Origin: Propioniciclava soli
GTDB lineage: Bacteria > Actinomycetota > Actinomycetes > Propionibacteriales > Propionibacteriaceae
NCBI RefSeq assembly: GCF_014858005.1
Contig: NZ_JACYOT010000001.1
Coordinates: forward strand, 186,001-250,000
DNA: 64,000 bases
Direction of reading: 5' to 3'
Position numbers and translations under genes: made by a program. Each line of letters begins with the position of its first letter. The first letter of the stretch is position 1. The notes below the pieces were generated by a model, which made no database searches, was not told the origin of the DNA, and worked only from the letters and a program-made list of their open reading frames with translations. Of the stretch, positions 9,000 to 21,803 are shown in pieces.

Positions 9000-9467
9000 C
9001 CTCTCGGGGTGAAAGCTGACGAACCGGTGCGGGGGTGCCGGCGACGAGGTGGTCCGCCGTCGATGGTCCCGCTCCTTGCTGCGCCAACGCTAGCGCGAAT
9101 CTACGCGGACGATGGGAGCGCGGGTGCGATCAGAATCGCGGGGGACAAGTCCGTGGTGGGGGAGGTGATGCAGGCCCTCGCCCGGACGCAGCAGGCCCGG
9201 TCAGATCCATGCCAAAGATGGGTGAGGGGATGCTGCGGCGGGTCGAGGTGCGCGCTGTTGACCTCCACGGTGCTCTGCATGAGGTGGTGTAGGGGATGCA
9301 TGAGGTGGTGAAGGGTCTGCATGGGGTGGTGAAGTGCGACCTGAACGTCTGCATCGGGTGGACCTGCGTAGAGAGTTTGAGAACCCCTGCCCAACCCTGA
9401 AAACCCCTATCTTTGCGCAGGTCACGCGGCTTCTACAAGCAGGACCGCCGTTCGTCGGGGGCCGACA
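9000..9467. other. Intergenic region with short tandem repeats
   Basis: No gene is supported. The part nearest 9000 must hold the promoter of the leftward hydrolase-cupin gene, but I cannot place its elements. A 21-base tandem repeat lies at 9276-9361. The rest shows no recognisable gene. Confidence 0.5.
9276..9361. repeat. 21-base tandem repeat TGCATGAGGTGGTGAAGGG
   Basis: Three adjacent 21-base units start at 9276, 9297 and 9318 (consensus TGCATGAGGTGGTGAAGGGnn, last unit diverged), and a fourth partial TGCATCGGGTGG starts at 9350. Because the period is a multiple of three it creates short open frames, but none has a credible start or composition. Confidence 0.75.
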
Positions 9468-9741
9468 GTGGCGGACTCGCGCGGTCGGATGGTGCGGTCA
9501 GTTGAGATGGCTCAAACCCTTCTGCTCCCCGAACAGGTCGACGATCTGGTGTCGGAGTATCGGTCGGGAGCGACGCTTGTGGAGCTGGCGGCGCAGTTCC
9601 GCGTGAACCGCCGAACTGTGGCCGCCCACTTGGTTCGTCGGGAGGTTCCGATCCGACGCGGGAGCTTCGACCCTTCCCGCATCCATGAAGCAGCCGACCT
9701 CTACCTCAGCGGACTGACGCTGGCAGAGGTCGGCGTAAAGG
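9468..9741 (+). pseudogene. HTH / resolvase C-terminal-like protein truncated by the IS element
   Basis: The frame encodes two consecutive helix-turn-helix repeats like those at the C-terminus of Hin/resolvase recombinases (SGATLVELAAQFRVNRRTVAAHL, then YLSGLTLAEVG). The second HTH is cut after LAEVG at 9741, exactly where the ISL3 terminal repeat begins, and the last residues come from IS DNA. The start may be 9468 or the ATG at 9507. No catalytic resolvase domain precedes it. The missing half does not reappear on the far side of the IS. Confidence 0.65.
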
Positions 9742-11212
9742 GGCTCTTCGGACATTCGGTGGGGATCACTGGGTGAGTCCGCCGGCGGCCAGGAGCATCC
9801 GGAGTCGGTAGTTCTCGAAGTTGCGGTAGCCGCGGGCCAGGCGGCGGTGGAGCTCGATGATGCCGTTGACGGCCTCGGTGCCACCGTTGGATGCCCGGGC
9901 GGTGGTGAAGTAGGCCAGGAACGCGTCCTTCCACTTGCGTAGCGTGCGGCCCAGGCGCGCGACCTCGGGGATCGGGCAGGTGTGGAAGACCTCGACGATC
10001 TTGGTCGCCGCTGCCAGCGCCTTCTTCGGGTTGGGCTGCTTGTAGGCGGCGCGCAGGTCCTGGGCGCAGCGCCAGGCGATGTAGACCTCCTCGTGGCGTT
10101 CGTCGGCGTTGATCGCCTCTTGCAGGCGTTGCAGCTGACGGTCGGTGAGGTTCTCCGCGCCGGCCCGCAGCATCGTCTGGATACCGAACAGTGGGTCGCC
10201 CTTGCGGCCCCGGTGACCGGTGGTGTCCTGCTGGACGCGGCGGCGTACCTCATCGACCACCGCGGTGCCGAGCTTGACGACATGGAAGCCGTCCAGGACT
10301 GCGACTGCGTCGGCGAACTGGTCATCGATCGCGGACTTGTAGCCGCCGAAGGGGTCCAGGGCCGCGACCCGATGCCCTCACGGAAGGCTGGCCCGCGTTC
10401 GGCGAGCCAGTCGGCGTAGGCCTTCTTCGAGCGTCCCGGCACCAGGTCCAGCAGCCTGGCGCGCACCACCCAGCGGCCACTCTTGTTGCGGTGGCGGGTC
10501 AGGTCGACCATCCCGGTCAGCTCCTTCGGGCCACGCTTCCTGGGGTCGACGTGGTGCCACAGGTGCTCATCGACGCCCAGGCTGAGCACGCCCTCGAAGC
10601 GTGTCTGGTCGGCGGCCAGGCCCTGCAGTCGGGGCTTGGTCGGGCGCCACAGCGTCTTCCAGGACGTCCCTAGCTGGCGGGCCAGACCGGCGAGGGTAGC
10701 GTGCTCACCACGGAGCTGCCCAATCGCCCAGGACACCGCCCGGACGGTGATCGAGCCGCGGGCGGCGACCAGGTCCGGGGCCTGCTCGGTGAACGTGGCG
10801 ACACCGCAGTCGGGATCGGGGCAGCGCCAGCGGCGTTGCCGCCACCGCAGCCGCACCAGGGTCTGCCCATGCGGGACATCGCGCAGCACCCGAACCCTGC
10901 GGCCCCGGCTGAGCGCGACCACCCCACACCCCGGGCATCCCATCAGCTGCCGTGGCGTCGAGACCGTCACAACGAGCAGATCAGCAGATCGCTCGACCGC
11001 CTCCACGTGCACGACGCCCAGGCCTAGCATCACGTCGCAGCGCGGGCACGGGTCAGAAGTAGTGGGTGCGGCAGCGCACCCCGTAACGTCAGGCACGTTG
11101 AGGTCCTCGAGACTGGATCAGTGGTTGGCGCTTCTGATCCTCGGGGACCTCGACCCCTACCCGCGCGCTACCGCGCCGTCAGCCCCGCTCCCCACCGGAT
11201 GTCCCTAGAGCC
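9742..11212. mobile_element. ISL3-family insertion sequence (about 1.47 kb)
   Basis: Bounded by imperfect terminal inverted repeats: GGCTCTTCGGACATTCGGTGGGG at 9742-9764, and at 11190-11212 a stretch whose reverse complement is GGCTCTAGGGACATCCGGTGGGG. It contains one transposase gene on the minus strand, frameshifted. ISL3 elements normally make an 8-base target duplication, but the flanks (CGTAAAGG on the left, GGATATCC on the right) do not match, and different genes are cut on each side. The junctions therefore probably arose by IS-mediated deletion or recombination rather than simple insertion. Confidence 0.88.
9766..11096 (-). pseudogene. ISL3-family transposase, frameshifted
   Basis: The N-terminal frame (from 11096) has zinc-finger cysteines (CPRC, CPGCG, a third Cys pair in CPDPDCG), a central HTH and the start of the DDE catalytic region (SLGVDEHLWHHVDPRKRG). 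After RGPAFREGI a single missing G near 10370 shifts the frame. The rest continues in the adjacent frame as VVDEVRRRVQQDTTGHRGRKGDPLFG through SNGGTEAVNGIIELHRRLARGYRNFENYRLR, containing the last catalytic Glu. Combined length is about 440 residues, normal for the family. I know of no programmed frameshift in ISL3 elements, so this copy is probably inactive unless the base was lost in sequencing. Confidence 0.88.
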
Positions 11213-11862
11213 GGATATCCGAGTTGATCGAGGGCGCTCTCAATGACCAGGTCGTACTTCGTGGTGAAGACTTGCGGCCTTGGCAGATTGACGCGACGAC
11301 TACGGATGATTCGGGAGAGGAACGTGCGGTGCGCAAGCAGTGGGTCGGAATCGAAGGGTGCGTCCAACGGCTTGCCGGGTTTCGGCAGGCGGCATGCTTC
11401 AGCGAGCGCCCGGTTGATCTGTTGTCGCAAGGCATCGACTTGCTTCTTCGGGTAGGACTTGGCATCCGCCCCCGAACCGAGCGTCACTGAGTCCTGGCCG
11501 GCTTGCGTCGCAAGCGATGCGGCAAGCTGGAGTCCGTTCAGGAGCTTTTCTAGATCACCGCTGTCGGTGGGATTGATCGTGGCAAGGAGCGATTGGTGTT
11601 CCTCCGTTGGCTCACCGCCAGCCTCCCTGATGAGCCCAAGTACCTGCTCATTGGTCAGGTCTCGCGTCTTTGGAGAGCCCAAGTGGAACGACGCGCCAGA
11701 GCCAAGAAGGACGACGAGGTTCTTCACTTGCAACAGCGAACCCAGATGCTCCCGGACCAATTTCGGCTCGGATGTCGTGATGATCTCTTTCACCGTGCCA
11801 CCGATAACGAGGAGGCCCTTGGCGTCATCCTCCGACTCCGTTTCGGCGTTCGTTGTTGTCAT
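11213..11862 (-). pseudogene. SIR2-domain protein, C-terminus removed by IS
   Basis: About 216 native residues remain. The SIR2-like NAD-binding signature VVLLGSGASFHLG sits near residues 50-62, and a second typical segment, TTKYDLVIESALDQLGYP, ends at the IS boundary. Translation then runs into IS sequence and stops at 11179. Bacterial SIR2-like proteins of this sort are NAD-degrading effectors in several anti-phage systems. The ATG at 11862 overlaps the stop of the upstream BrxL-like gene (ATGA), so the two formed one translationally coupled operon. As truncated it is unlikely to work. Confidence 0.75.
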
Positions 11863-12779
11863 CGGGCCCCCTCTTGCTCGTTGATGTAGGTGATGCCGAA
11901 CGCGAAGACCTGACGGAACTCCTGGCGGCGGGAGCCGAGGTCGAACTGGCTACCGGAACCCTTCTGGAAGATGTCGAGACCACGCCCGAGGAGGAGCTTC
12001 CAGCCGTGGTCGGTGCGGATCGACCGGTCGTGGATGGTTTCATCCCAGTTGACGGTGAACTGGATACCGACCGTAGCGGCGCTGTCCTGGATGTCCTTGA
12101 GCATGAGGAGGTGCTGCTGGGCATACTCGCCGCGGTCTTCCTTGGTCACCAGTGTCACCGCGATCTCGTCGGCGGGGTCCTTGGCCGCCGCTAGCAGGGC
12201 CAGCAGATCGACGAGGTTGCGTCCCTGGTGCGGGAGCCGGATGTAGGGATCGACGATGGTGATGTCCGTGGCGCCGTGCAAATAGGGCATGAGCAGCGTC
12301 TCGTACGAGACTCCACGCTGGTTCTCCTGGAACTCCCGGTGCCCTTCGAACAGGGGCGCCGCCACCTCGGGAGCAACTGGAGCCGCAACTGCGACCTCTG
12401 CTTGCGCGGACCCACGCTCCTCCGCCGACGCCTCTACTTCGCCCTCGGCCTCGGGGCGGCGAGCCTGGTAGTAGTCGGGGTACTCGTCCTCCTCAAGCGT
12501 GGTGACGCCACGCCAGGTGCCCGACTTGTCGGAGTAGCCGAAGTTGACGGCGGCCATTGTGGTGTCGATCCGAAGAATCTGGTCCTTGACGCGCTTGCGT
12601 CCTTCGACGGCGAAGCGCAGCAGTTCCTCGATCTCCTCTTGCGTGGCCTCGCCGCCCGGGTAGATGAGCTTCATCAGGCCAGAGAAGGTCTTGTGGATGC
12701 CGTCGCGGTCCCGAGTGGAGATGTCGGAGCCGAGCGTGAAGTGCTGCTGGTAGCGGTCGGAGTAGTCGATGTTGCGCAG
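11859..12779 (-). pseudogene. C-terminal fragment of a BrxL-like Lon protein with MIT_C-like domain
   Basis: The first residues match the C-terminal part of BREX Lon-like BrxL proteins (LRNIDYSDRYQQHF, LGSDISTRDRDGI, SGLMKLIYPGGE, then ELLRFAVEGRKRVKDQI). Homology starts sharply at 12779 with no start codon, so the AAA/Lon core is missing. After an acidic, Ala-rich linker comes a domain with DITIVDPYIRLPHQGRNLVDLL, resembling the MIT C-terminal (PLD-like) domain. An internal ATG at 12674 could still give a 271-residue protein. The family calls are from memory of motifs; BrxL is fairly clear and MIT_C is likely. Confidence 0.68.
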
Positions 12780-12832
12780 TGGCCTACATCGCTGCCTTCG
12801 ACGCGTCTCGGATGCATCCTGACGGTACCGGG

Positions 12833-13516
12833 CTATCGGGGTGTGGCGACGTGTTCGAGTGCATCAATGTCGAGGATGGAGACGTCTCGGCGTCCGTGGA
12901 GTTCGATGATGCCGGAGGTGGAGAGCGCGGCGAGGCGTCGGCTCAGGGTTTCGGGCGTGGTTCCGAGGTAGGCGGCGATGTCTTGTTTCGCCATCGGCAG
13001 CCTCACCGTGGGTACGCCTGCTCGCATGCTGCCGGGCAGATCTAGCAGGTAGGCCGCCACGCGGGCGTTGACGTCGCTGGAGGTGACGGCGCCCAGCAGT
13101 CGCTCGACTGAGGAGAGCCGGTCGGAGAGTGTCCGCAGCATCCGCTGACTGATGTCGGGGTAGTCGCGGAGCAGGGCCGAGAGGTCGGCGTGGTCGAAGA
13201 CGCACATCCGACTGTCTTCTAGCGCGACGACGAGGTCGACCGGGCGGTGGCCCGTCAGGAAGGCCCGTTCTCCCACGACATCACCGTCTGTCACCGTTCG
13301 CAGAATCTGTTCCTGACCATTGGCCGCCGTGTGGCTGACCTTGAGCTGTCCGCTGTGCATCACCAGCAGACGCGACACCGACTGTCCGGGGGAACAAACA
13401 ATATCCCCCTTGTGGACGCACACCGGGCGAACGAAGTCGGCGACGTGCAGCTGCTCCTGGCGCGTCAGTCCTTGGAAGATCGGTACGCGAGCTACGCACA
13501 GGTCATCCTCAGACAT
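12833..13516 (-). CDS. Crp/Fnr-family transcriptional regulator
   Basis: A 227-residue regulator with an N-terminal cyclic-nucleotide-binding-fold sensor domain (GDIVCSPGQSVSRLLVMHSGQLKV) and a C-terminal winged HTH (MAKQDIAAYLGTTPETLSRRLAAL). Cysteines at 7, 33 and 41 in the sensor domain are not spaced like the classical FNR iron-sulfur motif but could bind metal or thiol ligands. It is divergent from the chaperone and P1B ATPase operon, with a perfect TTGAC-N4-GTCAA site between them, so it very probably controls that operon. The inducing signal (metal, redox or nitric oxide) is not visible. Confidence 0.88.
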   Translation of the reverse strand: MSEDDLCVARVPIFQGLTRQEQLHVADFVRPVCVHKGDIVCSPGQSVSRLLVMHSGQLKVSHTAANGQEQILRTVTDGDVVGERAFLTGHRPVDLVVALEDSRMCVFDHADLSALLRDYPDISQRMLRTLSDRLSSVERLLGAVTSSDVNARVAAYLLDLPGSMRAGVPTVRLPMAKQDIAAYLGTTPETLSRRLAALSTSGIIELHGRRDVSILDIDALEHVATPR

Positions 13517-13594
13517 GCCTCAAGCCTACCGGAATCGGCGCGGGCGCCACCGTCCCAGATGCCCCAGGGGGCGCCTCGTACGGTGCCGTCCGGA

Positions 13595-13610
13595 CTTGAC
13601 CTGGGTCAAG
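13595..13610. promoter_or_regulatory. FNR/Crp-type operator CTTGACCTGGGTCAAG
   Basis: A perfect 16-base palindrome containing TTGAC-N4-GTCAA, the geometry of an FNR box. It sits between the divergent regulator (start 13516) and the copZ-like gene (start 13681). A possible -10 TATCGT at 13632-13637 would place the transcription start near 13644, putting the box centre at about -41.5, the classic class II activation position. That start site is inferred. Confidence 0.8.
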
Positions 13611-13680
13611 GAGTTCGCAGTGGCGCGAACCTATCGTGAAGGTGTCAATACGGAACACCACCAAGAAAAGGATTCTCACA

Positions 13681-13914
13681 ATGACTACCTCCACCGCCAC
13701 CCACACCCTTTTGAGGGCCGAGGGATTCTCCTGCCCGTCCTGCGTGGCGAAGATCGAAAAGCAGGTCGGCCGCCTCAAGGGTGTCGAGAACGTGAAGGTC
13801 CATTTCGCCTCATCCCGCATCGAGATCGACCACGACGCCGAGCGCGTCTCCGTGGATGACCTCGTGACTGCCGTGGCGAAGGCCGGCTATAAGGCCACTC
13901 CTTCAGCCTTCTGA
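13681..13914 (+). CDS. Heavy-metal-associated (HMA) domain chaperone, CopZ-like
   Basis: A 77-residue single HMA domain with the metal-binding GFSCPSC motif (Cys18, Cys21) and the ferredoxin-like pattern ending in AVAKAGYKA. It would carry a soft metal ion to the ATPase encoded next. An AAAAGGA site precedes the ATG. It is the first gene of the operon behind the FNR-type box, and 91 bases separate it from the ATPase. Copper is the usual cargo of such proteins, but the downstream ATPase has an odd metal motif, so the metal is uncertain. Confidence 0.88.
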   Translation: MTTSTATHTLLRAEGFSCPSCVAKIEKQVGRLKGVENVKVHFASSRIEIDHDAERVSVDDLVTAVAKAGYKATPSAF

Positions 13915-14005
13915 GGCACGCGGGCCCCTGTGGGGTCGCACATTTTTCGCTCATACCCGATCTGCCGGTCCGCTGGCACTCATCGCAGAAAGGTCGTACC
14001 CGAAA

Positions 14006-16006
14006 GTGAACAGGCTCCAGAAATGGGTCTATGGGAACTGGTCGGTCCCCGTCGTGTCCGGCGTACTCATCATCATCTCCTTCGCCGTTCAACGGCTGGC
14101 CGAGGGTGCGGCCAACCTCACCATCAGCCCCCAGTGGTGGCTCGATGCCGGCGCCCACGCCACCCATGCCACCGCGGTCTTCACCCTCGCGGATGCCTTC
14201 ATGGTCGCCGCCGCCGTGGTCGCCGGCTACGGGATCGTGATCAAGGCGGTTCGCGCGCTGATCGCCAAGGTCATCGGCATCGACCTGCTGGTGTCGGTGG
14301 CGGCCATCGGCGCGGTCATCATCGGCAACTTCTGGGAGGCCGCGGCGGTCACGTTCCTATTCGCCATCGGACACGCTCTGGAAGCGGCGACCCTGAACAG
14401 GACCCGCTCGGCCCTGGCCGAGCTGGTCGCCGTCGCCCCGGATTCCGCCGTCGTTGTGCGCGATGGTGAACAACAGGAGATCCCTGCCGGACAGGTGAGA
14501 ATGGGCGAGATCGTCCTGGTCAAGAACGGCTCGAAGGTCCCCGTGGACGGCCAGGTCGTCTCCGGCTCCGGCGCCATCAATGAGGCCTCCATCACCGGCG
14601 AATCGATCCCGGTGGAGAAATCCAAAGGTGACCAGGTGTTCGCCGGCACTGTCTCCCGCGGCGGCTTCCTGCAAGTGCTGGCTACCGGCATCGGCGCGGA
14701 TACCACCCTGGCCCGCATCATCCACCGGGTGGAGGAGGCCCAGGACGCCAAGGCCCGCACCCAGGCCTTCATGGACCGCTTCTCCCGCTGGTACACCCCC
14801 GCCGTCATGGTGCTGGCACTGGCGGCCGGACTGATCGCTGGTGATGTGGTCCTGGCGTTGACCCTGCTGGTCATCGGCTGCCCCGGCGCCCTGGTGATCT
14901 CCATTCCGGTCGCGATCGTGGCAGGCATCGGCCAGGCTGCCCGTAATGGCATCCTGATCAAGGGCGGCGAGTTCCTGGAGACCTCGGCCAAGATCTCGGC
15001 GGTCGCCGTGGACAAGACCGGCACCCTCACCGAGGGCCAACCTGTCCTCACCGATGTCGTGGTCCTGGATTCGGCACGGGACCGTGCCGACGTGCTGCGC
15101 TGGGCCGCGGCCGCCGAGGCTGGTTCGGAGCACCCGCTGGCCCGTCCCATCCTTCAGACGGCGCGCGATGAGGGGGTGGCCCCCGAGGGGGTCCCCGGCA
15201 CCGTCACCCCGGTCCCCGGTAAGGGCATCGTGTCCGACGTTGCCGGCCAACGGGTGCTCATCGGCAACCCGCCGCTGCTGGACCAGTACGGCGTTCCCGA
15301 CGACGGCAGCGCCGCTCGGGCGGCGGAAACGCTGGCCTCCGATGGAAAGACGCCGATGATCGTGGCCGTCGACGACCAGGTGATCGGCGTCGTCGCCGTG
15401 GCCGATCAGATCCGGCAGGACGCCGCCGAGATGGTCGCCCGGCTCCACCGAGCCGGGGTCGAGGAGGTGGTCATGCTCACCGGTGACACCCGACTGGTGG
15501 CCGAAGCCGTCGGGAAGGCCACCGGGATCGACGAGATCCACGCCTCCCTGCTCCCCGAAGACAAGCTGGACGTGGTCGCACAGTTGCAACGCCAGGGCCA
15601 CACGATTGCCATGGTCGGGGACGGTGTCAACGACGCCCCCGCTTTGGCCACCGCGAACATCGGCGTGGCAATGGGCGCGGCCGGTTCAGCCGTGGCCGTG
15701 GAGACCGCGGACATCGCCCTGATGGGCGACAACCTGCTCAAACTGCCCGAAGCCATCGGTCTGGCCAAGCGGACCGTGTCCGTGATGCGGCAGAACATCG
15801 CGATCGCCCTGATCACCGTGGTGCTGCTGCTGGCCGGTGTTTTCGCCGGCGGGGTGACCATGTCCGTCGGCATGCTCGTCCACGAAGCCTCCGTACTGGT
15901 CGTCATCATCAACGCAATGCGACTGCTACGGAAGAGCCGCGGTTCGACCACGACGCCACCGGCCGAGAGGACCACGGAGAAGGGGGCACAGCAGGTAACC
16001 GCCTGA
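14006..16006 (+). CDS. P1B-type heavy-metal-translocating ATPase with CPG motif
   Basis: A 666-residue membrane pump from GTG 14006. Visible landmarks are the actuator TGES, phosphorylation site DKTGT (Asp336), nucleotide-domain HP (GSEHPLA) and hinge GDGVNDAP. It has no N-terminal HMA domain; that role falls to the separate chaperone upstream. The ion-binding motif in the sixth membrane helix is GCPGALVIS (Cys292-Pro-Gly) instead of CPC or SPC, and the last helices contain MLVHEASVLVVI, closer to the HEG-type of P1B-4 pumps than to copper pumps. Efflux of a transition metal is likely but its identity is open. Confidence 0.88.
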   Translation: MNRLQKWVYGNWSVPVVSGVLIIISFAVQRLAEGAANLTISPQWWLDAGAHATHATAVFTLADAFMVAAAVVAGYGIVIKAVRALIAKVIGIDLLVSVAAIGAVIIGNFWEAAAVTFLFAIGHALEAATLNRTRSALAELVAVAPDSAVVVRDGEQQEIPAGQVRMGEIVLVKNGSKVPVDGQVVSGSGAINEASITGESIPVEKSKGDQVFAGTVSRGGFLQVLATGIGADTTLARIIHRVEEAQDAKARTQAFMDRFSRWYTPAVMVLALAAGLIAGDVVLALTLLVIGCPGALVISIPVAIVAGIGQAARNGILIKGGEFLETSAKISAVAVDKTGTLTEGQPVLTDVVVLDSARDRADVLRWAAAAEAGSEHPLARPILQTARDEGVAPEGVPGTVTPVPGKGIVSDVAGQRVLIGNPPLLDQYGVPDDGSAARAAETLASDGKTPMIVAVDDQVIGVVAVADQIRQDAAEMVARLHRAGVEEVVMLTGDTRLVAEAVGKATGIDEIHASLLPEDKLDVVAQLQRQGHTIAMVGDGVNDAPALATANIGVAMGAAGSAVAVETADIALMGDNLLKLPEAIGLAKRTVSVMRQNIAIALITVVLLLAGVFAGGVTMSVGMLVHEASVLVVIINAMRLLRKSRGSTTTPPAERTTEKGAQQVTA

Positions 16007-16128
16007 CATCCAAATCCGCACCGGGGCCCTGGGGCCCGCACGCCTCCGGATCATCCCGAGGACGGATAAGCACGAAAACTCAGACAGCGACATAGAGACA
16101 GCCATACAGGAAGCAGAGGAGATCAGCC

Positions 16129-16554
16129 ATGACCGAGAAGAACTTCACCCTTGGAGACAACGTCGAGCACTTTACTATTGCGGACGTCGCCCGGGACAAT
16201 CCGGACTTCCGGAAGGTGCTGTGGACCGGCGAACACGCCCAGATCGTCGTCATGACGATTCCGCCCGGTGGTGAGATCGGGGACGAGGTCCACGAACACA
16301 CCGACCAGATCCTGACCTTTGTCTCCGGTATCGGCGAGGCGGACCTCAACGGTCACACCCACCCCATCGAGGCAGGCGACCAGTGCGCGGTTCCTGCCGG
16401 CGCCCAGCATAACTTCCGCAACACCGGCGAGGAGTCGCTGGTGCTCTACACCGTCTACAGCCCGCCGGAACACGCCGCCGGTGTCGCCTTCGCCACAAAG
16501 GGCGAAGCCGACGCTGCCGAGGCCGCCGGCCGAGACGAACCGCCGCGGCACTGA
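16129..16554 (+). CDS. Cupin-domain protein
   Basis: A 141-residue small cupin. Probable metal ligands lie in EVHEHTDQILTFVSG and, further on, in PAGAQHNFRNTG. AGGAG precedes the ATG. It is the third gene of the FNR-box operon, 122 bases after the ATPase. Cupins of this size are often oxidoreductases or small-molecule sensors; placement between a metal pump and a quinone reductase suggests a role in redox or metal stress, but no reaction can be assigned. Confidence 0.85.
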   Translation: MTEKNFTLGDNVEHFTIADVARDNPDFRKVLWTGEHAQIVVMTIPPGGEIGDEVHEHTDQILTFVSGIGEADLNGHTHPIEAGDQCAVPAGAQHNFRNTGEESLVLYTVYSPPEHAAGVAFATKGEADAAEAAGRDEPPRH

Positions 16555-16615
16555 ACAACGCCGTTCTGGCGAACCCACTGGGACGCCGAATCGAAACCAC
16601 TGAGAAGGAGATCCC

Positions 16616-17521
16616 ATGTCCAAGGTCTATGTGTTCAACGACTACGGCGGGCCCGAGACCCAGCAGCTGATCGACCGGCCTGTTCCCGTGCCCGGGCCCG
16701 CAGAGCTGGCCATCGAGGTACGGGCCGCCGGAGTGAACCCAGCCGACTGGAAGATCCGCGAGGGCCAGCTGGGCCATCACTGGAGCCTGCCGGCACCGAT
16801 GGGACGCGAGGCCGCCGGCGTGATCACCCAGCTCGGCGACGGGATCGAGGAATTCACCGTGGGCGACGAAGTGCTCGGTCTGGTGGCACCCGGACACGGT
16901 GGGCTGGCCGAACACACACTGTTGCGCGCCGCCACGACCGTGGCCAAGCCCGAGGAGATCTCCTTCACCGACGCCGCCACCATCCCGGTGGCCGCGGCCA
17001 CGGCCTATGACGCCACACACCAGATCGAACTCGAACCGGGCCAGACAATGCTGCTGCTGGGCGCGGGCGGTGGGGTGGGACTGATGGCCGCACAGATCGG
17101 CCGGGTGCACGAGTTCAGGGTCATCGGTGTGGCCAGCTCAGCTAAGCGGAGCCTGGTCGAGTCCACCGGTGCCATCTTCGTCGAATCCGGTCCGAACCTG
17201 CCCGAACGGGTGCGTCAGATCGCCCCCGACGGGGCAGATCTGATTGTCGACCTCGTCGGTGGGGATGCGCTGCGCGCCGTCGCGGACCTGGTGCCCGACC
17301 GGACCCGGATCATCTCAGCGGCTGATCCGGACACCGCCGCCGAGCTGGGCGGCCTGGCCCTGGCACGCACGAGTGAGGCCATGGGGAAGATCACCGAGGT
17401 GATCCAATACGGGCTGGTCGATCCGCACGTGGACGCCCAGTTCGGCCTGGATGAAGCAGGTCAGGCGATTGCCGCAGTCGAGACCAGACATGCGGCCGGA
17501 AAGATCGTCGTGGTGCCCTGA
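16616..17521 (+). CDS. NADP-dependent quinone oxidoreductase (MDR superfamily, zinc-free)
   Basis: A 301-residue medium-chain reductase. The N-terminal GroES-like fold includes AAGVNPADWKIREG and MGREAAGVI. The Rossmann domain has the dinucleotide motif LLLGAGGGVG. The catalytic-zinc Cys/His pattern of alcohol dehydrogenases is absent, as in quinone oxidoreductases. GAGAAGGAGA precedes the ATG, and the gene closes the operon begun by the HMA chaperone. It could reduce quinones or enals produced under metal or oxidative stress; the substrate is inferred. Confidence 0.87.
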   Translation: MSKVYVFNDYGGPETQQLIDRPVPVPGPAELAIEVRAAGVNPADWKIREGQLGHHWSLPAPMGREAAGVITQLGDGIEEFTVGDEVLGLVAPGHGGLAEHTLLRAATTVAKPEEISFTDAATIPVAAATAYDATHQIELEPGQTMLLLGAGGGVGLMAAQIGRVHEFRVIGVASSAKRSLVESTGAIFVESGPNLPERVRQIAPDGADLIVDLVGGDALRAVADLVPDRTRIISAADPDTAAELGGLALARTSEAMGKITEVIQYGLVDPHVDAQFGLDEAGQAIAAVETRHAAGKIVVVP

Positions 17522-17658
17522 GGCGAGCCCACCGAGGCCGGACGGGGCGCGGTGAGCATGCGTTTTTCATTCGGGGCGGGCACGCTCCACTGCATTGCTC
17601 CTGAACAGGGGCTCAGCTCGACGTGCCCGGATGAGCCGAGAGGGTGGGGAGGGTCCCG

Positions 17659-17925
17659 ATGTCGATCGTACCGCGATATGTGCTGGAGACGCGCGCTCCG
17701 CAGCCGCGTGCGGGTGCATGTGTCGGCATCAGTGCGGTCACCGCTGGCGGCGTTGCTTCCATCACCTTCGGCACGGTCGTACTCGCTGCTGTACTGCTCT
17801 GTGGATGCAGCCAGCAAGGCGCACGTCTGCTGGACGTGCATGGACCGGGCGACGCCTCGGCTCCGGGTCATCCACAGACCGTCGCAACGACGGGCGACGG
17901 CGACCCGGACGGTGCGGGCGCGTGA
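17659..17925 (+). CDS. Small putative membrane/lipoprotein of unknown function
   Basis: An 88-codon frame with a good GGGGAGGG ribosome site before ATG 17659. It has a hydrophobic stretch ending LAAVLLCGCSQQ, which looks like a membrane segment or a late lipobox, and then a Gly/Asp/Pro-rich tail. It stops four bases before the AraC start, suggesting coupling. I do not recognise a family, and the hydrophobic segment lies unusually far (about 25 residues) from the N-terminus for a signal peptide. It may be spurious. Confidence 0.4.
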   Translation: MSIVPRYVLETRAPQPRAGACVGISAVTAGGVASITFGTVVLAAVLLCGCSQQGARLLDVHGPGDASAPGHPQTVATTGDGDPDGAGA

Positions 17926-17929
17926 CGGC

Positions 17930-18838
17930 ATGCCCGTCGGACGTTTCTCCCCGGTGCTTGCCCGCACACGCTCCATCCATGCTCCGATTTCCCCCATCGC
18001 CTACGACTGCGTCAAGTTGATCTTTGTGCGTTCGGGCTCCGCGGTCCTGCTCAGCGAGTTCGGTGAGAAGCCGGTCGCCGTCGGCGATGTCGTGGCGTTG
18101 GGGGCAAACACTCTGTGCGGGAGCGAGCCCGAGGGCTGGGTCACGGTCACCACGCTGTACCTGGATCGTGACTACGTCATTGATCAGGTGTTCTGGCAGC
18201 ACGCAGCGTTGCTGGCCGATCGGTGGGATGCCCAGGGCTTCGCCGACGAGCTGTACTCCGAGCCTGCACAAATATTGCTCCTGGGTGAGGACCGCGTGGG
18301 GATGCTGATGCCCTGGCTGGACGAGATGGTCGCGCTCAGTATCGACGGACCCGCAGCGGAGAGTTTCTACCGGCTCCAGGCGCTGCTGTTCGCGGTGCTG
18401 GATGTGATCGCCCCTTTCGTCAAGACGACTCCGGTACGACGGACACACTCCCAACGGTTGGCAACGTGGCCCGGCTTGCCCCACCACCGCCGGTTCGCGC
18501 CCTTGCGCGCCGAAGCCCGCGAGGCCGCTGGACTCCTTCGCACCGCGACAGCACGTCGATGGACACTGCCCGAGCTTGCCAAGGCAGTGCATCTCTCGCC
18601 GTCCCAGCTGGGCCGGGTCTTCGTCGACGCCTACGGGAAAACACCGATGACGTACCTGGCGACATTGCGCGCCCAGGAGTTGGCGCGTCTGCTGCGTGAG
18701 ACCAATCTGCCGATCGAGGTCGCGATGCGTGAGGTCGGGTGGCACAGCCGCGGTCACGCCGCGCGACTATTCCGCCAGTGTGTCGGAGCAAGCCCGACGC
18801 GCTACCGCCAGCTCGTCCGGCAGAAGGCCGCCAGCTGA
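17930..18838 (+). CDS. AraC-family transcriptional regulator
   Basis: A 302-residue regulator with a cupin-like ligand domain (VKLIFVRSGSAVLL, VAVGDVVALG) and a C-terminal AraC double HTH over about the last 100 residues (LPELAKAVHLSPSQLGRVFVDAYGKTPMTYL, then REVGWHSRGHAARLFRQ). The frame is open from 17552, but that upstream part is Cys/Trp/Arg-rich and not regulator-like, so ATG 17930 is preferred; it lies four bases after a small upstream frame. Its target is unknown; no partner gene lies next to it. Confidence 0.85.
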   Translation: MPVGRFSPVLARTRSIHAPISPIAYDCVKLIFVRSGSAVLLSEFGEKPVAVGDVVALGANTLCGSEPEGWVTVTTLYLDRDYVIDQVFWQHAALLADRWDAQGFADELYSEPAQILLLGEDRVGMLMPWLDEMVALSIDGPAAESFYRLQALLFAVLDVIAPFVKTTPVRRTHSQRLATWPGLPHHRRFAPLRAEAREAAGLLRTATARRWTLPELAKAVHLSPSQLGRVFVDAYGKTPMTYLATLRAQELARLLRETNLPIEVAMREVGWHSRGHAARLFRQCVGASPTRYRQLVRQKAAS

Positions 18839-19069
18839 CGACTCGGTGCACATAGGAGCATCTGCGATACGGGAATCCGCATCATCACCCGATCCGGCGC
18901 GTTCTTCGCCTGACGGGCTGGTAGTCCGGTAGATCTCGTCGGTTCCACCGCCGCTCCCGACCGGTCGCATCCTCGTCCGTTTCGTGGCATTGGTGCTCCC
19001 GGCGCACCTGATGGTCACCGAGCTCGATCGGCCCGGTGCTCAGGGTATCGGGAGGAGACAGCGACGATG
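18839..19069. other. Intergenic stretch without genes
   Basis: About 230 bases between the AraC gene and the methyltransferase fragment. I see no gene, promoter or repeat that I can support. Confidence 0.4.
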
Positions 19070-19263
19070 GCCACGACACGAGAGGAAGTCCTCCTCCTCA
19101 CGGACTCCCTCGTTAATGAGGCTTCGTATCTTCGCGCGGCCCGCCCGGCTGAATGGCTGGCAGGGTGGCCCTCCCGCGACAAGATCAATCCCAAGCGGCT
19201 GGAGCCTCTCGATGAGAGCCGCCACTTGGTCTTGGTCGGACATGTCCACATCGAGGGCAAGCC
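19070..19263 (-). pseudogene. DNA (cytosine-5) methyltransferase fragment
   Basis: About 60 residues of a C5 methyltransferase, read leftward: LALDVDMSDQDQVAALIERL, then the unmistakable motif IV GGPPCQPFSRAG with the catalytic Cys, then RAKIRSLINEGVREEEDFLS. Similarity begins abruptly at about 19263 and fades at about 19080. There is no start codon, no SAM-binding motif I and no target-recognition domain. It is a relic of a restriction-modification system. The break at 19263 is also where the DUF4913-like frame on the opposite strand begins. Confidence 0.75.
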
Positions 19264-19278
19264 CGCGGAACCGTCGCG

Positions 19279-19644
19279 GTGGTGCCGCCGTTCTGGCACC
19301 ACCACCCGGAGATGGTCTGGGAGCTGTCGGCGCTGCACCTGCATTGGCTGGGGGCCTACGACCCCGAGCAGAACGCATCCGCGCCGCTCGGCTGGCACCG
19401 CGACTTCGCCGACGCACGAGAGCGCCTTCGCTACTGGGTCACCGCCTGCGGCACGCGTGGCGATCGTGACCGCCCGACCCGGCAAGCTTCTTGGCCCGGT
19501 GAGGACCCGGCACCCGCGATCCAGGACTTCACCTTCACCGACCGGGACACCGAGTTCGCCGAGTTCGTCATCGCCCAAGTCCGCAAGCGCCAGGAGGCCG
19601 AAGACGAGTTCTACGCCAGCCTGGCTGACGACGAAGCGCAGTAG
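19279..19644 (+). CDS. DUF4913-like protein, probably 5'-truncated
   Basis: A 121-residue protein from GTG 19279 with the pattern VVPPFWHHHPEMVWELSALHLHWLG and WHRDFADARERL, which resembles the WC..WW.HPEA..RL..LW.AWE pattern of DUF4913, a family found on actinobacterial conjugative elements. The frame is open upstream to the methyltransferase break at about 19263 and has no good ribosome site, so the original N-terminus may be lost. It lies five bases before the next small gene, part of the recombinase module. Confidence 0.55.
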   Translation: MVPPFWHHHPEMVWELSALHLHWLGAYDPEQNASAPLGWHRDFADARERLRYWVTACGTRGDRDRPTRQASWPGEDPAPAIQDFTFTDRDTEFAEFVIAQVRKRQEAEDEFYASLADDEAQ

Positions 19645-19648
19645 ACCG

Positions 19649-19876
19649 ATGAGCCGCTACGCCAAGAAGACCGACCGTCGCCCGTACGAGGAGCGGTCGT
19701 TCTCCGTCCGGGCCGTCCACCGCGAACGTGCCGACCTGCACAAGCTCGCCGAGGTTCTCATCCGGCTGACATTGCAGGAGACCGGCGAGAACCGCGCGGC
19801 CCGCGCGGCCACTCTGGTACCCGACACCTACCGGGCGGCGACGGTTGACCTGGCCGCCTCTGAAGCCGCCCGGTAG
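19649..19876 (+). CDS. Small conserved-looking hypothetical protein of the recombinase module
   Basis: A 75-residue, strongly charged N-terminus (MSRYAKKTDRRPYEERSFSVRAVHRER) followed by a helical segment (LHKLAEVLIRLTLQE). It starts five bases after the DUF4913-like stop, so it is probably translationally coupled. I do not recognise a named family. Position directly before the integrase suggests a role in the mobile element. Confidence 0.6.
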   Translation: MSRYAKKTDRRPYEERSFSVRAVHRERADLHKLAEVLIRLTLQETGENRAARAATLVPDTYRAATVDLAASEAAR

Positions 19877-19891
19877 AATGAACCGTGCAAG

Positions 19892-19986
19892 CCTCGCGAT
19901 GCGGGGTGTTGTGGCCTAAACCTCGCCGCTCGGCGGGCAACACGCACCGAGACCATCGGGTCTCGCCCTACAGCCTTTACTGGCTG
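19892..19986 (+). ncRNA. Run of four hairpins in the recombinase leader
   Basis: Consecutive potential stem-loops lie between the small gene and the recombinase: CCTCGC/GCGGGG (19892-19906); GTGTTG/CAACAC (19906-19943) enclosing CGCCG/CGGCG; CGAGACC/GGTCTCG (19948-19965); and CAGCC/GGCTG (19971-19986). Such dense structure suggests a regulatory leader or an attachment-related region. No known RNA family is recognised. Confidence 0.4.
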
Positions 19987-20057
19987 CTCTCACGATCAAC
20001 ACCCCTCCCACGAACAGTTGGAGCGCGAGGGTGGAACCGCATGAGAGTGAGACCCCG

Positions 20058-21803
20058 ATGACCACCATTGCCGATGATCCGGCTGCCAGCATCATCGACC
20101 CGCCCAAGACAATGGCTGCCGCCGTGTCGTACCTGCGAGTCTCGACCCGCGAGCAGGCAGAGAAGGGCGGCACGGACGAGGGCTTCTCGATCCCGGCCCA
20201 GCGCGAGGCGACCCGGCGCAAGGCCGAACAGCTCGGCGCCAGTATCGTCGAGGAGTTCGTCGACGCGGGAGCCTCGGCCAAGTCGTCCGACCGGCCCGAG
20301 CTGATGCGGATGATCCAGTACGTCAAGGCCAACAAGGTCGCATACTGCATCGTCCACAAGGTCGACCGGCTCGCCAGAAACCGCGCCGACGACGTGAGCA
20401 TCCACCTCGCACTCCAACAGTGCGGGGTCATGCTCGTATCCGCGTCGGAGAACATCGACGAGACGCCCTCCGGGATGCTGTTGCACGGCATCATGTCCAC
20501 GATCGCCGAGTTCTACTCCCGCAACCTCGCCACCGAGGTCGCCAAGGGCATGACCCAGAAGGCCATCGGCGGTGGCACGAACGGGCGCGCGCCCATCGGG
20601 TACTTGAACGTACGCAAGCGCGACGAGCTCGGCCGCGAAGTCCGCACCATCGAGCTCGATCCCGAGCGAGCACCGATGATCGAGTGGGCGTTCAAGGCCT
20701 ACGCCTCGGGCAACTGGAGCGTCAGCCAACTGCACGATGAACTCACCTCGCGCGGGCTGCGCAGTCTGCCCACACCGAAGCGGCCGGCGAAATCGCTGGC
20801 GGTATCCACCATCCATCGGCTCCTGACAAACCCGTACTACAAGGGCGATGTCATCTACCGAGGCACCCGCTACAAGGGCAACCACCCAGCGCTCGTGCCT
20901 GCCGAGGTCTGGTATCAGGTCCAGTCCGTGCTCACCGCGCACCAGTGCGCCGTCGAGGCAACCCAAGTCCACGGCCACTACCTCAAAGGCACAATCCACT
21001 GCGGCCAGTGCGGCTCCCGGCTCATCGTGTCCAACGCGAAGAACCGCCACGGGAACGTGTACTGCTACTTCGTGTGCTCCGGTCGGCACTCCAAGCGCAC
21101 CGACTGCACGCGCCAGGCGATGCTCATCGAGGACGTCGAGAAGCTCGTCGAGGACTACTACACCCGTGTCCAGATCACGCCCGCCCAACAGGACGCACTA
21201 GCAGGGATGCTGCACCACGAGTTCGACCGGCTGATGGCCGCCGAAACCGAGGAACTGGAACGTCTCACCACCAACCGCGATCGGCTCGAAGGCGAGCAGG
21301 ACCGGCTCATGCAGGCGCATTACGCCGACGCGATCCCGCTCTCAGTGCTCAAGCGCGAGCAGGACCGCATCGTCGCCGAGCTCGACCAAGTGACCCGCCG
21401 CATACACGCCCACTTCGGTGACTACGCCGACGCCCGCGCCCACCTCGACGACGCCTTGGGCCTGCTCGCGAACTGCGCCGACATCTACGCCCGCTGCGAC
21501 GACACCAACCGGCGGCTGTGCAACCAGGCGTTCTTCACCAAGGTCTTCATCGACGAGGACAACGAGCTACGAGTCGAACACAACCGGCCCTTCGAGATGC
21601 TCCTCGATCCGCAGGTCAACGCCAACGCTCTGACCTGGGCCGCAGACGCGAACAAGGCCCGAACCTCGACCAACGTTTCCGTTGGCAAGGGTTCGAGCCT
21701 TGTGCGTTGGGTGGACCCAAGGGGACTCGAACCCCTAACCCCCTGCTTGCAAAGCAGGTGCGCTACCAATTGCGCCATGGGCCCCGGCAACGGCCCAGTC
21801 TAG
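20058..21803 (+). CDS. Large serine recombinase (integrase)
   Basis: A 581-residue serine integrase. The catalytic resolvase domain starts with AVSYLRVSTREQ (nucleophile Ser29), followed by IVHKVDRLARN. Next is the recombinase domain (GRAPIGYLNVRKRDE, LLTNPYYKGDVIYRG), a zinc ribbon (CGQCGSRL with CSGRHSKRTDC) and a coiled-coil (LERLTTNRDRLEGEQDRL). A GTG at 20031 is an alternative start. The last 40 or so codons run through a nested hairpin and across tRNA-Ala on the other strand, so the native stop was probably lost or altered at the integration junction. It is the likely motor of the 9.4-21.7 kb island. Confidence 0.9.
   Translation: MTTIADDPAASIIDPPKTMAAAVSYLRVSTREQAEKGGTDEGFSIPAQREATRRKAEQLGASIVEEFVDAGASAKSSDRPELMRMIQYVKANKVAYCIVHKVDRLARNRADDVSIHLALQQCGVMLVSASENIDETPSGMLLHGIMSTIAEFYSRNLATEVAKGMTQKAIGGGTNGRAPIGYLNVRKRDELGREVRTIELDPERAPMIEWAFKAYASGNWSVSQLHDELTSRGLRSLPTPKRPAKSLAVSTIHRLLTNPYYKGDVIYRGTRYKGNHPALVPAEVWYQVQSVLTAHQCAVEATQVHGHYLKGTIHCGQCGSRLIVSNAKNRHGNVYCYFVCSGRHSKRTDCTRQAMLIEDVEKLVEDYYTRVQITPAQQDALAGMLHHEFDRLMAAETEELERLTTNRDRLEGEQDRLMQAHYADAIPLSVLKREQDRIVAELDQVTRRIHAHFGDYADARAHLDDALGLLANCADIYARCDDTNRRLCNQAFFTKVFIDEDNELRVEHNRPFEMLLDPQVNANALTWAADANKARTSTNVSVGKGSSLVRWVDPRGLEPLTPCLQSRCATNCAMGPGNGPV
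21654..21701. terminator. Nested hairpin between recombinase and tRNA-Ala
   Basis: The outer stem AAGGC-C-CGAACC pairs with GGTTCG-A-GCCTT, and inside it CCAACG-TTTC-CGTTGG forms a second perfect stem. It lies 10 bases beyond the 3' end of the minus-strand tRNA, where a tRNA terminator is expected, although it lacks a T run. It could instead be, or overlap, the attachment core of the integrated element. Confidence 0.5.
21712..21784 (-). tRNA. tRNA-Ala (anticodon TGC)
   Basis: A 73-base cloverleaf on the minus strand: 5' acceptor GGGCCCA pairs with TGGGTCC (one G-U), D arm GCGC...GCGC, anticodon arm CCTGC-TTTGCAA-GCAGG giving anticodon TGC, variable loop, T arm AGGGG-TTCGAGT-CCCCT, discriminator A. 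CCA is not encoded (CCC follows). A TAGACT -10 element lies at 21797-21802 on the minus strand. It marks the right-hand edge of the accessory region. Confidence 0.95.

Follow-up and report, generated by a model that had tools for sequence, protein, structure and literature searches.

Self-splitting integrases were described in a 2021 review as exclusively archaeal and of the tyrosine type. The SSV-type (suicidal) archaeal integrases, among them those of SSV1, pTN3 and pT26-2 (PMC8371274), are tyrosine recombinases whose gene contains the recombination site and is split upon integration; both halves are called inactive after the split (PMC8371274), and rescue by another copy is conceivable. Among serine recombinases, integration at tRNA genes is rare according to Ghinet et al. 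(PMC3218068), the examples being Mycobacterium AICEs in tRNA-Leu and phage phiRSM1 in tRNA-Ser. The Mycobacterium AICEs use one tRNA per group, and no split gene is mentioned in the relevant sections of that paper. Serine integrases of the phiC31 / A118-LI type are not known to carry attP inside the integrase gene. According to Rutherford et al. (PMC3783163), attP and attB sites differ by 5 bp in the position of the zinc-ribbon motif.

The locus analyzed here is very likely the right end of a decayed ICE with a serine integrase that reads tRNA and tmRNA ends and whose attP lies within the integrase gene. Akin to the SSV type, the recombination site is located within the integrase gene, the gene is split on integration and rescue by another copy is conceivable. 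However, the present enzyme is a bacterial serine recombinase that keeps the whole recombinase part and loses only a tandem helix-turn-helix (HTH) tail. With the Mycobacterium AICEs and phiRSM1 it has in common a serine recombinase at a tRNA gene, and with the former also the occurrence in Actinobacteria. In contrast to the Mycobacterium AICEs, near-identical integrases are found here at several tRNA isotypes and the wider family also uses tmRNA; whether both belong to one family was not tested. The domain order is shared with the phiC31 / A118-LI type, as is, for the P' arm against the tRNA side only, a 5-bp outer-motif shift between attP and attB; phiC31 itself is only weakly similar in sequence (E 4e-6). 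No bacterial or serine self-splitting integrase was recognised in the open-access literature searched, subscription papers and preprints being largely outside its scope. As far as this search reaches, a self-splitting integrase is new for bacteria and for the serine family, and a different part is cut off.

The decayed element and its integrase

The window, a stretch of 64,000 nucleotides (G000:C1:186001-250000) from a host genome of 3.8 Mb, contains an integrase frame at 20031-21803 (590 aa), in which Pfam recognised Resolvase, Recombinase and Zn_ribbon_recom domains. Thus, the domain criterion for large serine recombinase integrases (N-terminal Resolvase, Recombinase and zinc ribbon) is met. 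In serine recombinases the usual active-site serine motif is R-V-S-T; it is visible by eye in the integrase sequence, and catalysis is inferred without an assay. The start is likely the ATG at 20058, common to the relatives, rather than the start of the frame. The sole tRNA that ARAGORN detected within the window is a tRNA-Ala(tgc) on the opposite strand, and the hairpin next to it folds at -39.5 kcal/mol (z about -7 versus mononucleotide shuffles). The 9-bp direct repeat GGGTGGACC flanks a decayed element of 12.35 kb (Table 1).

The initial annotation had described a recombinase frame crossing a hairpin and an intact tRNA-Ala on the opposite strand, which was confirmed by ARAGORN, folding and Pfam. 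It had further proposed that an integrated mobile element has its edge here and that the integrase gene had its native 3' end exchanged at the attachment site. Both parts are supported; the left end and the direct repeat were located, as was the native continuation in relatives (see below). A repeat had been expected near 9.0-9.5 kb, and the left end is found at 9358, as suggested. Homologues elsewhere with the same C-terminal residues would have refuted the proposal; instead, the residues elsewhere differ and are set by the tRNA. As the last residues of the window integrase are the host tRNA read backwards, they are not native. A DUF4913-like gene, said to precede the integrase, was not supported: neither the small gene at this place nor its intact homologue in locus L019 matched any Pfam family, including DUF4913. 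The small gene is truncated, with homology to other elements starting abruptly at 19270-19273.

Table 1. Features of the element in the window (window coordinates) and integrase frames contiguous with a tail in other genomes
Feature	Position	Strand	Basis or remark
attL core, GGGTGGACC, left copy of direct repeat	9356-9364		left-end homology of other elements starts at 9357/9358
Detached integrase C-terminal tail (linker and HTH), frameshifted, interrupted by an insertion sequence	9358-9741	+	tblastn, nhmmer, genome search
GAACC motif of P' arm, 5 bp farther from core than the tRNA T-arm motif	9381-9385	+	
ISL3-type insertion sequence within tail	9742-11212	-	Pfam HTH_Tnp_ISL3, Zn_ribbon_ISL3; transposase frame 9498-11096
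Cargo absent from other elements	11213-19269		Pfam; no homology to other elements
Conserved ICE segment upstream of integrase, with truncated small gene	19270-20030	+	85-95% identity to closest elements
Large serine integrase, element-derived part up to crossover	20058-21711	+	Pfam, relatives
Strong hairpin directly 3' of tRNA, integrated state	21648-21707	-	
GTTC of left P arm	21691-21694	+	fixed core distance in non-His right ends compared
attR core, GGGTGGACC, right copy of direct repeat; crossover within tRNA nt 71-74	21709-21717		
tRNA-Ala(TGC), intact target gene	21710-21784	-	ARAGORN
Host-derived read-through end of integrase frame (antisense tRNA-Ala)	21712-21803	+	differs with host tRNA in relatives
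Contiguous integrase-tail ORFs of 776, 773, 706 and 685 aa, respectively	G407:C57, G254:C1, G262:C6, G014:C354		

Homology of the window element to other elements is confined to the tail and to 19270-21712. The ICE genes are gone; no coupling protein or transfer genes were found in the window element, in which the homologous stretch is missing. The tail is frameshifted and cut at 9742 by the ISL3-type insertion sequence, a block with homologues in unrelated places. Pfam assigned the cargo to a BrxL/MIT_C fragment, a Crp-type regulator, a P-type ATPase, a cupin, a zinc alcohol dehydrogenase and an AraC regulator. The BrxL/MIT_C fragment (11859-12674, minus strand) carries the last part of a BrxL ATPase domain together with a phospholipase D-like MIT_C domain and may be a defence remnant within the island. 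Three imperfect 21-bp tandem repeats (9276-9338) lie immediately left of attL. A second copy of the tRNA 3' end with at most three mismatches is not present in the window, the direct repeat being only 9 bp, and a regular-expression search for the P' arm gave nothing but noise; the left end was located via the protein tail instead. In congeners, the DNA left of the same tRNA-Ala varies between genomes (L126 852-4991, L119, L120), which marks this flank as a hot spot. Two further integrases of this kind occur in the window genome. One is at tRNA-His (C34); the other, at tRNA-Phe (C54), is truncated, and its tail lies 50.3 kb upstream.

Target genes and the crossover site

Eighty relatives were taken from species genomes. 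In the closest ones the DNA is approximately 90-95% conserved up to GTGCG..GGTGG and is then followed by the host tRNA; integrated forms retain a complete recombinase part, conserved to about 95% among these closest relatives. Their targets are tRNA-Ala (three anticodons), tRNA-Val and tRNA-Lys, such near-identical integrases (~95%) occurring at these genes in many genera, and tRNA-Leu and tRNA-Arg follow at 76-80% integrase identity. The 3' end of a tRNA or tmRNA of many kinds adjoins 133 of the 149 integrase 3' ends: 131 of these junctions carry a tRNA on the other strand, to which L069 (tRNA-His) and L215 (tmRNA) are added. The remaining 16 are off the contig (5), at element-type junctions (5) or at broken or partial tRNAs (6, one of them entered twice). 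Because the same organism appears under two loci in several cases (e.g. L018/L128, L020/L133, L024/L135, L030/L136), the 149 right ends are not all independent; L237 yielded no 3' part. A sample of the order contained the integrase in at least 74 of 391 genomes, a lower bound since at most three candidates per genome were scored. In a class-wide sample it was found in 17 of 394 genomes, with 19 of 20 right ends at a tRNA or tmRNA (17 tRNA, L350 at tRNA-Leu, L351 at tmRNA) and L348 at neither; the phases of this sample were set aside because the core had been placed by a loose pattern. Hence, the initial view that a site next to a tRNA would be unusual failed for this integrase family, where it is the rule. 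Strains lacking the island had been suggested as a source of attB, and an empty site for the window itself was not found, its congeners differing in the left flank.

The relatives are ICEs, mostly of 9-70 kb. Among eight frames near the integrase of L019, Pfam identified T4SS-DNA_transf/TraG-D_C (a TraG/VirD4-type coupling protein) and SSB upstream of the integrase gene, which for this relative satisfies the criterion of an ICE with type IV secretion. Plasmid records gave no match at E 1e-50, phage records gave 8 weak matches (<60% identity), and viral contigs contained four integrase relatives and no integrase-tail junction. Two loci without a tRNA (L033 and L059) were at first taken for attP, as they are mutually similar, and were rejected; by eye they resemble ends of insertion sequences inserted into the tRNA. 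Broken tRNAs are also present in L029 and L054, and none is recognisable in L057. In L029, L033, L054 and L059 the junction tRNA was broken by further insertions or deletions, thus the occupied tRNA copy can be lost. In L084 (10588-10760), about 80-90 bp with a second core copy separate the integrase core from an intact tRNA-His.

The part common to attL and attR of one element is at least GTG(G/C) for group A; for the His group it is at least GGGT (G280). Both correspond to tRNA nt 71-74 (numbering from the T-arm). These pairs limit the overlap dinucleotide to the four positions; group A attP reads GGT-GG-ACC, and symmetry favours 71/72, leaving the exact dinucleotide unresolved. The GAACC of the tRNA T-arm is nearly invariant and recurs on the P' arm 5 bp farther out than on the tRNA side. 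The left P arm resembles a T-arm copy (GGTTCGA), and its TT at -20/-19 is invariant over 73 distinct right ends. Taking nt 73/74 as the centre gives its motif attB-arm spacing; with 71/72 as the centre the motif deviates from symmetry by 1 bp. A 5-bp shift of the outer (ZD) motif, away from the centre in attP relative to attB, fits for the P' arm versus the tRNA side, and the left P arm is attB-like or 1 bp off depending on the centre chosen. In the host DNA left of attL no position from -30 to -2 exceeds 0.28 bit. The invariance of GTG in this comparison is by construction, as the search pattern required it; the comparison also includes some duplicate rows, L261 (really an integrase 3' end) and one spurious L179 row. 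Our inference is that recognition by the enzyme rests on the T-arm half, a feature that nearly every tRNA gene has, with any sequence accepted on the other side. The use of tmRNA, with its tRNA-like end, as a target (L215, L351) agrees with T-arm reading.

An empty site was obtained for the 38.6-kb element of G276 in tRNA-Leu: in both G157 and G411 its two flanks adjoin each other, the left gene matching at 81-83% over 690-698 bp and the tRNA at 92-93%. The right flank matches at 76% over 499 bp in G157 and at 77% over 112 bp in G411. No clean empty site was found around G198, G142, G164 or the window flank, so that G276 remains the only case.

A hairpin beside the tRNA recurs among the right ends. 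The 60 bases after the tRNA fold at a mean of -40 kcal/mol in group A, -37 in the His group and -28 in divergent members, against about -14 to -26 kcal/mol elsewhere in the last 260 bases of the gene. A z below -2 was obtained for 35/35, 26/26 and 21/28 right ends, respectively. The hairpin sequences differ between groups, hence it is the shape that is kept. In G142 and G164, the host flank of attL terminates in a hairpin, which by eye resembles the tRNA's own terminator. The element hairpin may replace this terminator, displaced to the left end, although this is an inference. Strand asymmetry of hairpin stability was not kept as support for a function at the RNA level, as the same bias was seen in two of the three control windows within the gene.

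The native 3' end of the integrase gene

In three loci without a tRNA (L138, L032 and L039) the integrase frame runs on for approximately 140-155 residues. The continuation of L138 and L032 recurs at left ends, each time starting at the core (G276, G015, G142, L053, L054, L084 and the window at 9358). The tail of L039 is unrelated in sequence to this common tail. An integrase-type junction is present there as well (11690-12112), and it is possible that tails are exchanged between elements. A search with the 156-aa tail yielded hits in 67/391 order genomes and 17/394 class genomes. On contigs carrying both, 37 of 50 tails precede an integrase of the same orientation by 3-79 kb (mostly 9-70). 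The others are contiguous (5), 4 kb downstream (1), on the opposite strand (1) or without a listed integrase within 110 kb (6); the left side of the downstream tail (L182) resembles another integrase end. A single ORF spans the integrase and tail matches in four of the five contiguous cases (Table 1), while in G336:C81 the ORF lengths of the two matches differ. G254 and G262 are tandem elements, as a second integrase is found at a tRNA ~74 and 92 kb further on; at such a junction, the left end of an element directly follows the 3' end of its predecessor's integrase. The tail, about 155 aa with tandem HTHs, is carried detached at the far end by integrated elements. Pfam matched it to HTH families in two places (HTH_23, HTH_7 of resolvases and Sigma70_r4), and AlphaFold predicts two three-helix units with moderate confidence (pLDDT 75, pTM 0.42).

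A chance recombination of co-resident elements could have joined tail and integrase, tandem junctions then being derived and attP normally lying elsewhere. In favor of this, attP-like junctions are mostly tandem, some of them between different subfamilies. However, single elements also have this P' arm at their left ends, with the same first base, and it is the same core at which they pair with right ends; one empty site joins the flanks exactly there. We therefore regard this possibility as very unlikely.

If integrase and tail are one gene, the core has to agree in frame. The T of the core GTG is at codon position 2 in 91 of 92 non-His right ends and at codon position 1 in 36 of 39 tRNA-His right ends; the out-of-phase His rows likely stem from a core misplaced by the script (L077, L085) and from an insertion (L084). 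Tails follow the same rule: 32/35 A-type tails share the non-His integrase phase and 13/13 His-type tails the His phase, the other three A-type tails being frameshifted like that of the window. In most members of the His group the tRNA supplies TGA at the core, and hence the integrated integrase stops exactly there. The linker (codons 11-46, 12 tails) has a pN/pS of 0.51 in frame versus 1.05 and 1.58 in the other frames and no in-frame stop in any of the 12 tails; tail and linker together reach ~0.5. A conserved tail start was not found, codon 47 being ATG, ACG or AAG. Because the core frame agrees and the linker evolves as protein, we place attP within the integrase gene, so that integration takes the HTH tail away.

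Two further explanations have to be considered. The tail could be a separate regulator gene that starts either with the core GTG or with an ATG further on and shares the integrase frame in attP only by chance; in A-type tails the core GTG is indeed an in-frame codon, and codon 47 of several tails is ATG. Speaking against this, His-type tails lack an in-frame GTG at the core, codon 47 varies, the core frame follows the subfamily in integrase and tail alike, and constraint at the protein level already acts on the linker before codon 47, making a separate gene unlikely. Alternatively, the integrase might functionally end near the core, with the continuation into tRNA or tail being neutral read-through and the tail a by-product of the attP position. 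The completeness and conservation of the recombinase part in integrated forms are compatible with this, as is the decay of tails in some integrated copies (window, L180, L182, L202). Yet the pN/pS of tail and linker, the retention of both HTHs at 40-86% identity and the invariant frame at the core argue otherwise, and we consider this reading unlikely too. With the tail as part of the integrase, the criterion of the SSV type is met, namely attP within the integrase gene and a gene split by integration. According to Pfam the enzyme is not a tyrosine recombinase. All three recombinase domains precede the core, and the split does not remove or inactivate the catalytic part.

Proposed mechanism and implications

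We propose that the integrase would recognise tRNA (and tmRNA) genes by their T-arm and acceptor end, with an attP located inside its own gene, between the recombinase part and the C-terminal tail. Comparison shows what insertion does: the recombinase part becomes linked to the tRNA 3' end, the tRNA stays intact, and the tail, detached from its start, remains at the other end. It also shows that two elements in tandem rebuild the full integrase-tail frame. In the absence of expression data we infer that the free circle and tandem junctions would give rise to the full protein and the integrated state to the tail-less one. Loss of the tail would then mark, and perhaps switch, the state of the element; the function of the tail is likewise inferred. 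A free circle was not seen, the attP-like junctions being tandem elements or at contig ends.

A bolder reading, which taken as a whole we put forward tentatively and would not yet favor, is that the free element makes an integrase with a DNA-binding tail, that integration cuts this tail off, and that a tandem or superinfecting element restores it. The two states, integrated and excised, would be distinguishable by the form of the integrase, which may also determine direction or superinfection exclusion, with or without an RDF. In the same reading, any gene with a tRNA-like T-arm would serve as attB for one serine integrase family throughout Actinobacteria.

For annotation, the C-termini of such integrases in integrated copies have to be treated with caution, as they are antisense tRNA. 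A serine integrase that needs little beyond a T-arm would represent a new targeting principle. The family would constitute a widespread bacterial serine self-splitting integrase in which the part removed is the DNA-binding tail and not the catalytic core, and it may thus offer a direct handle on direction control in serine integrases.
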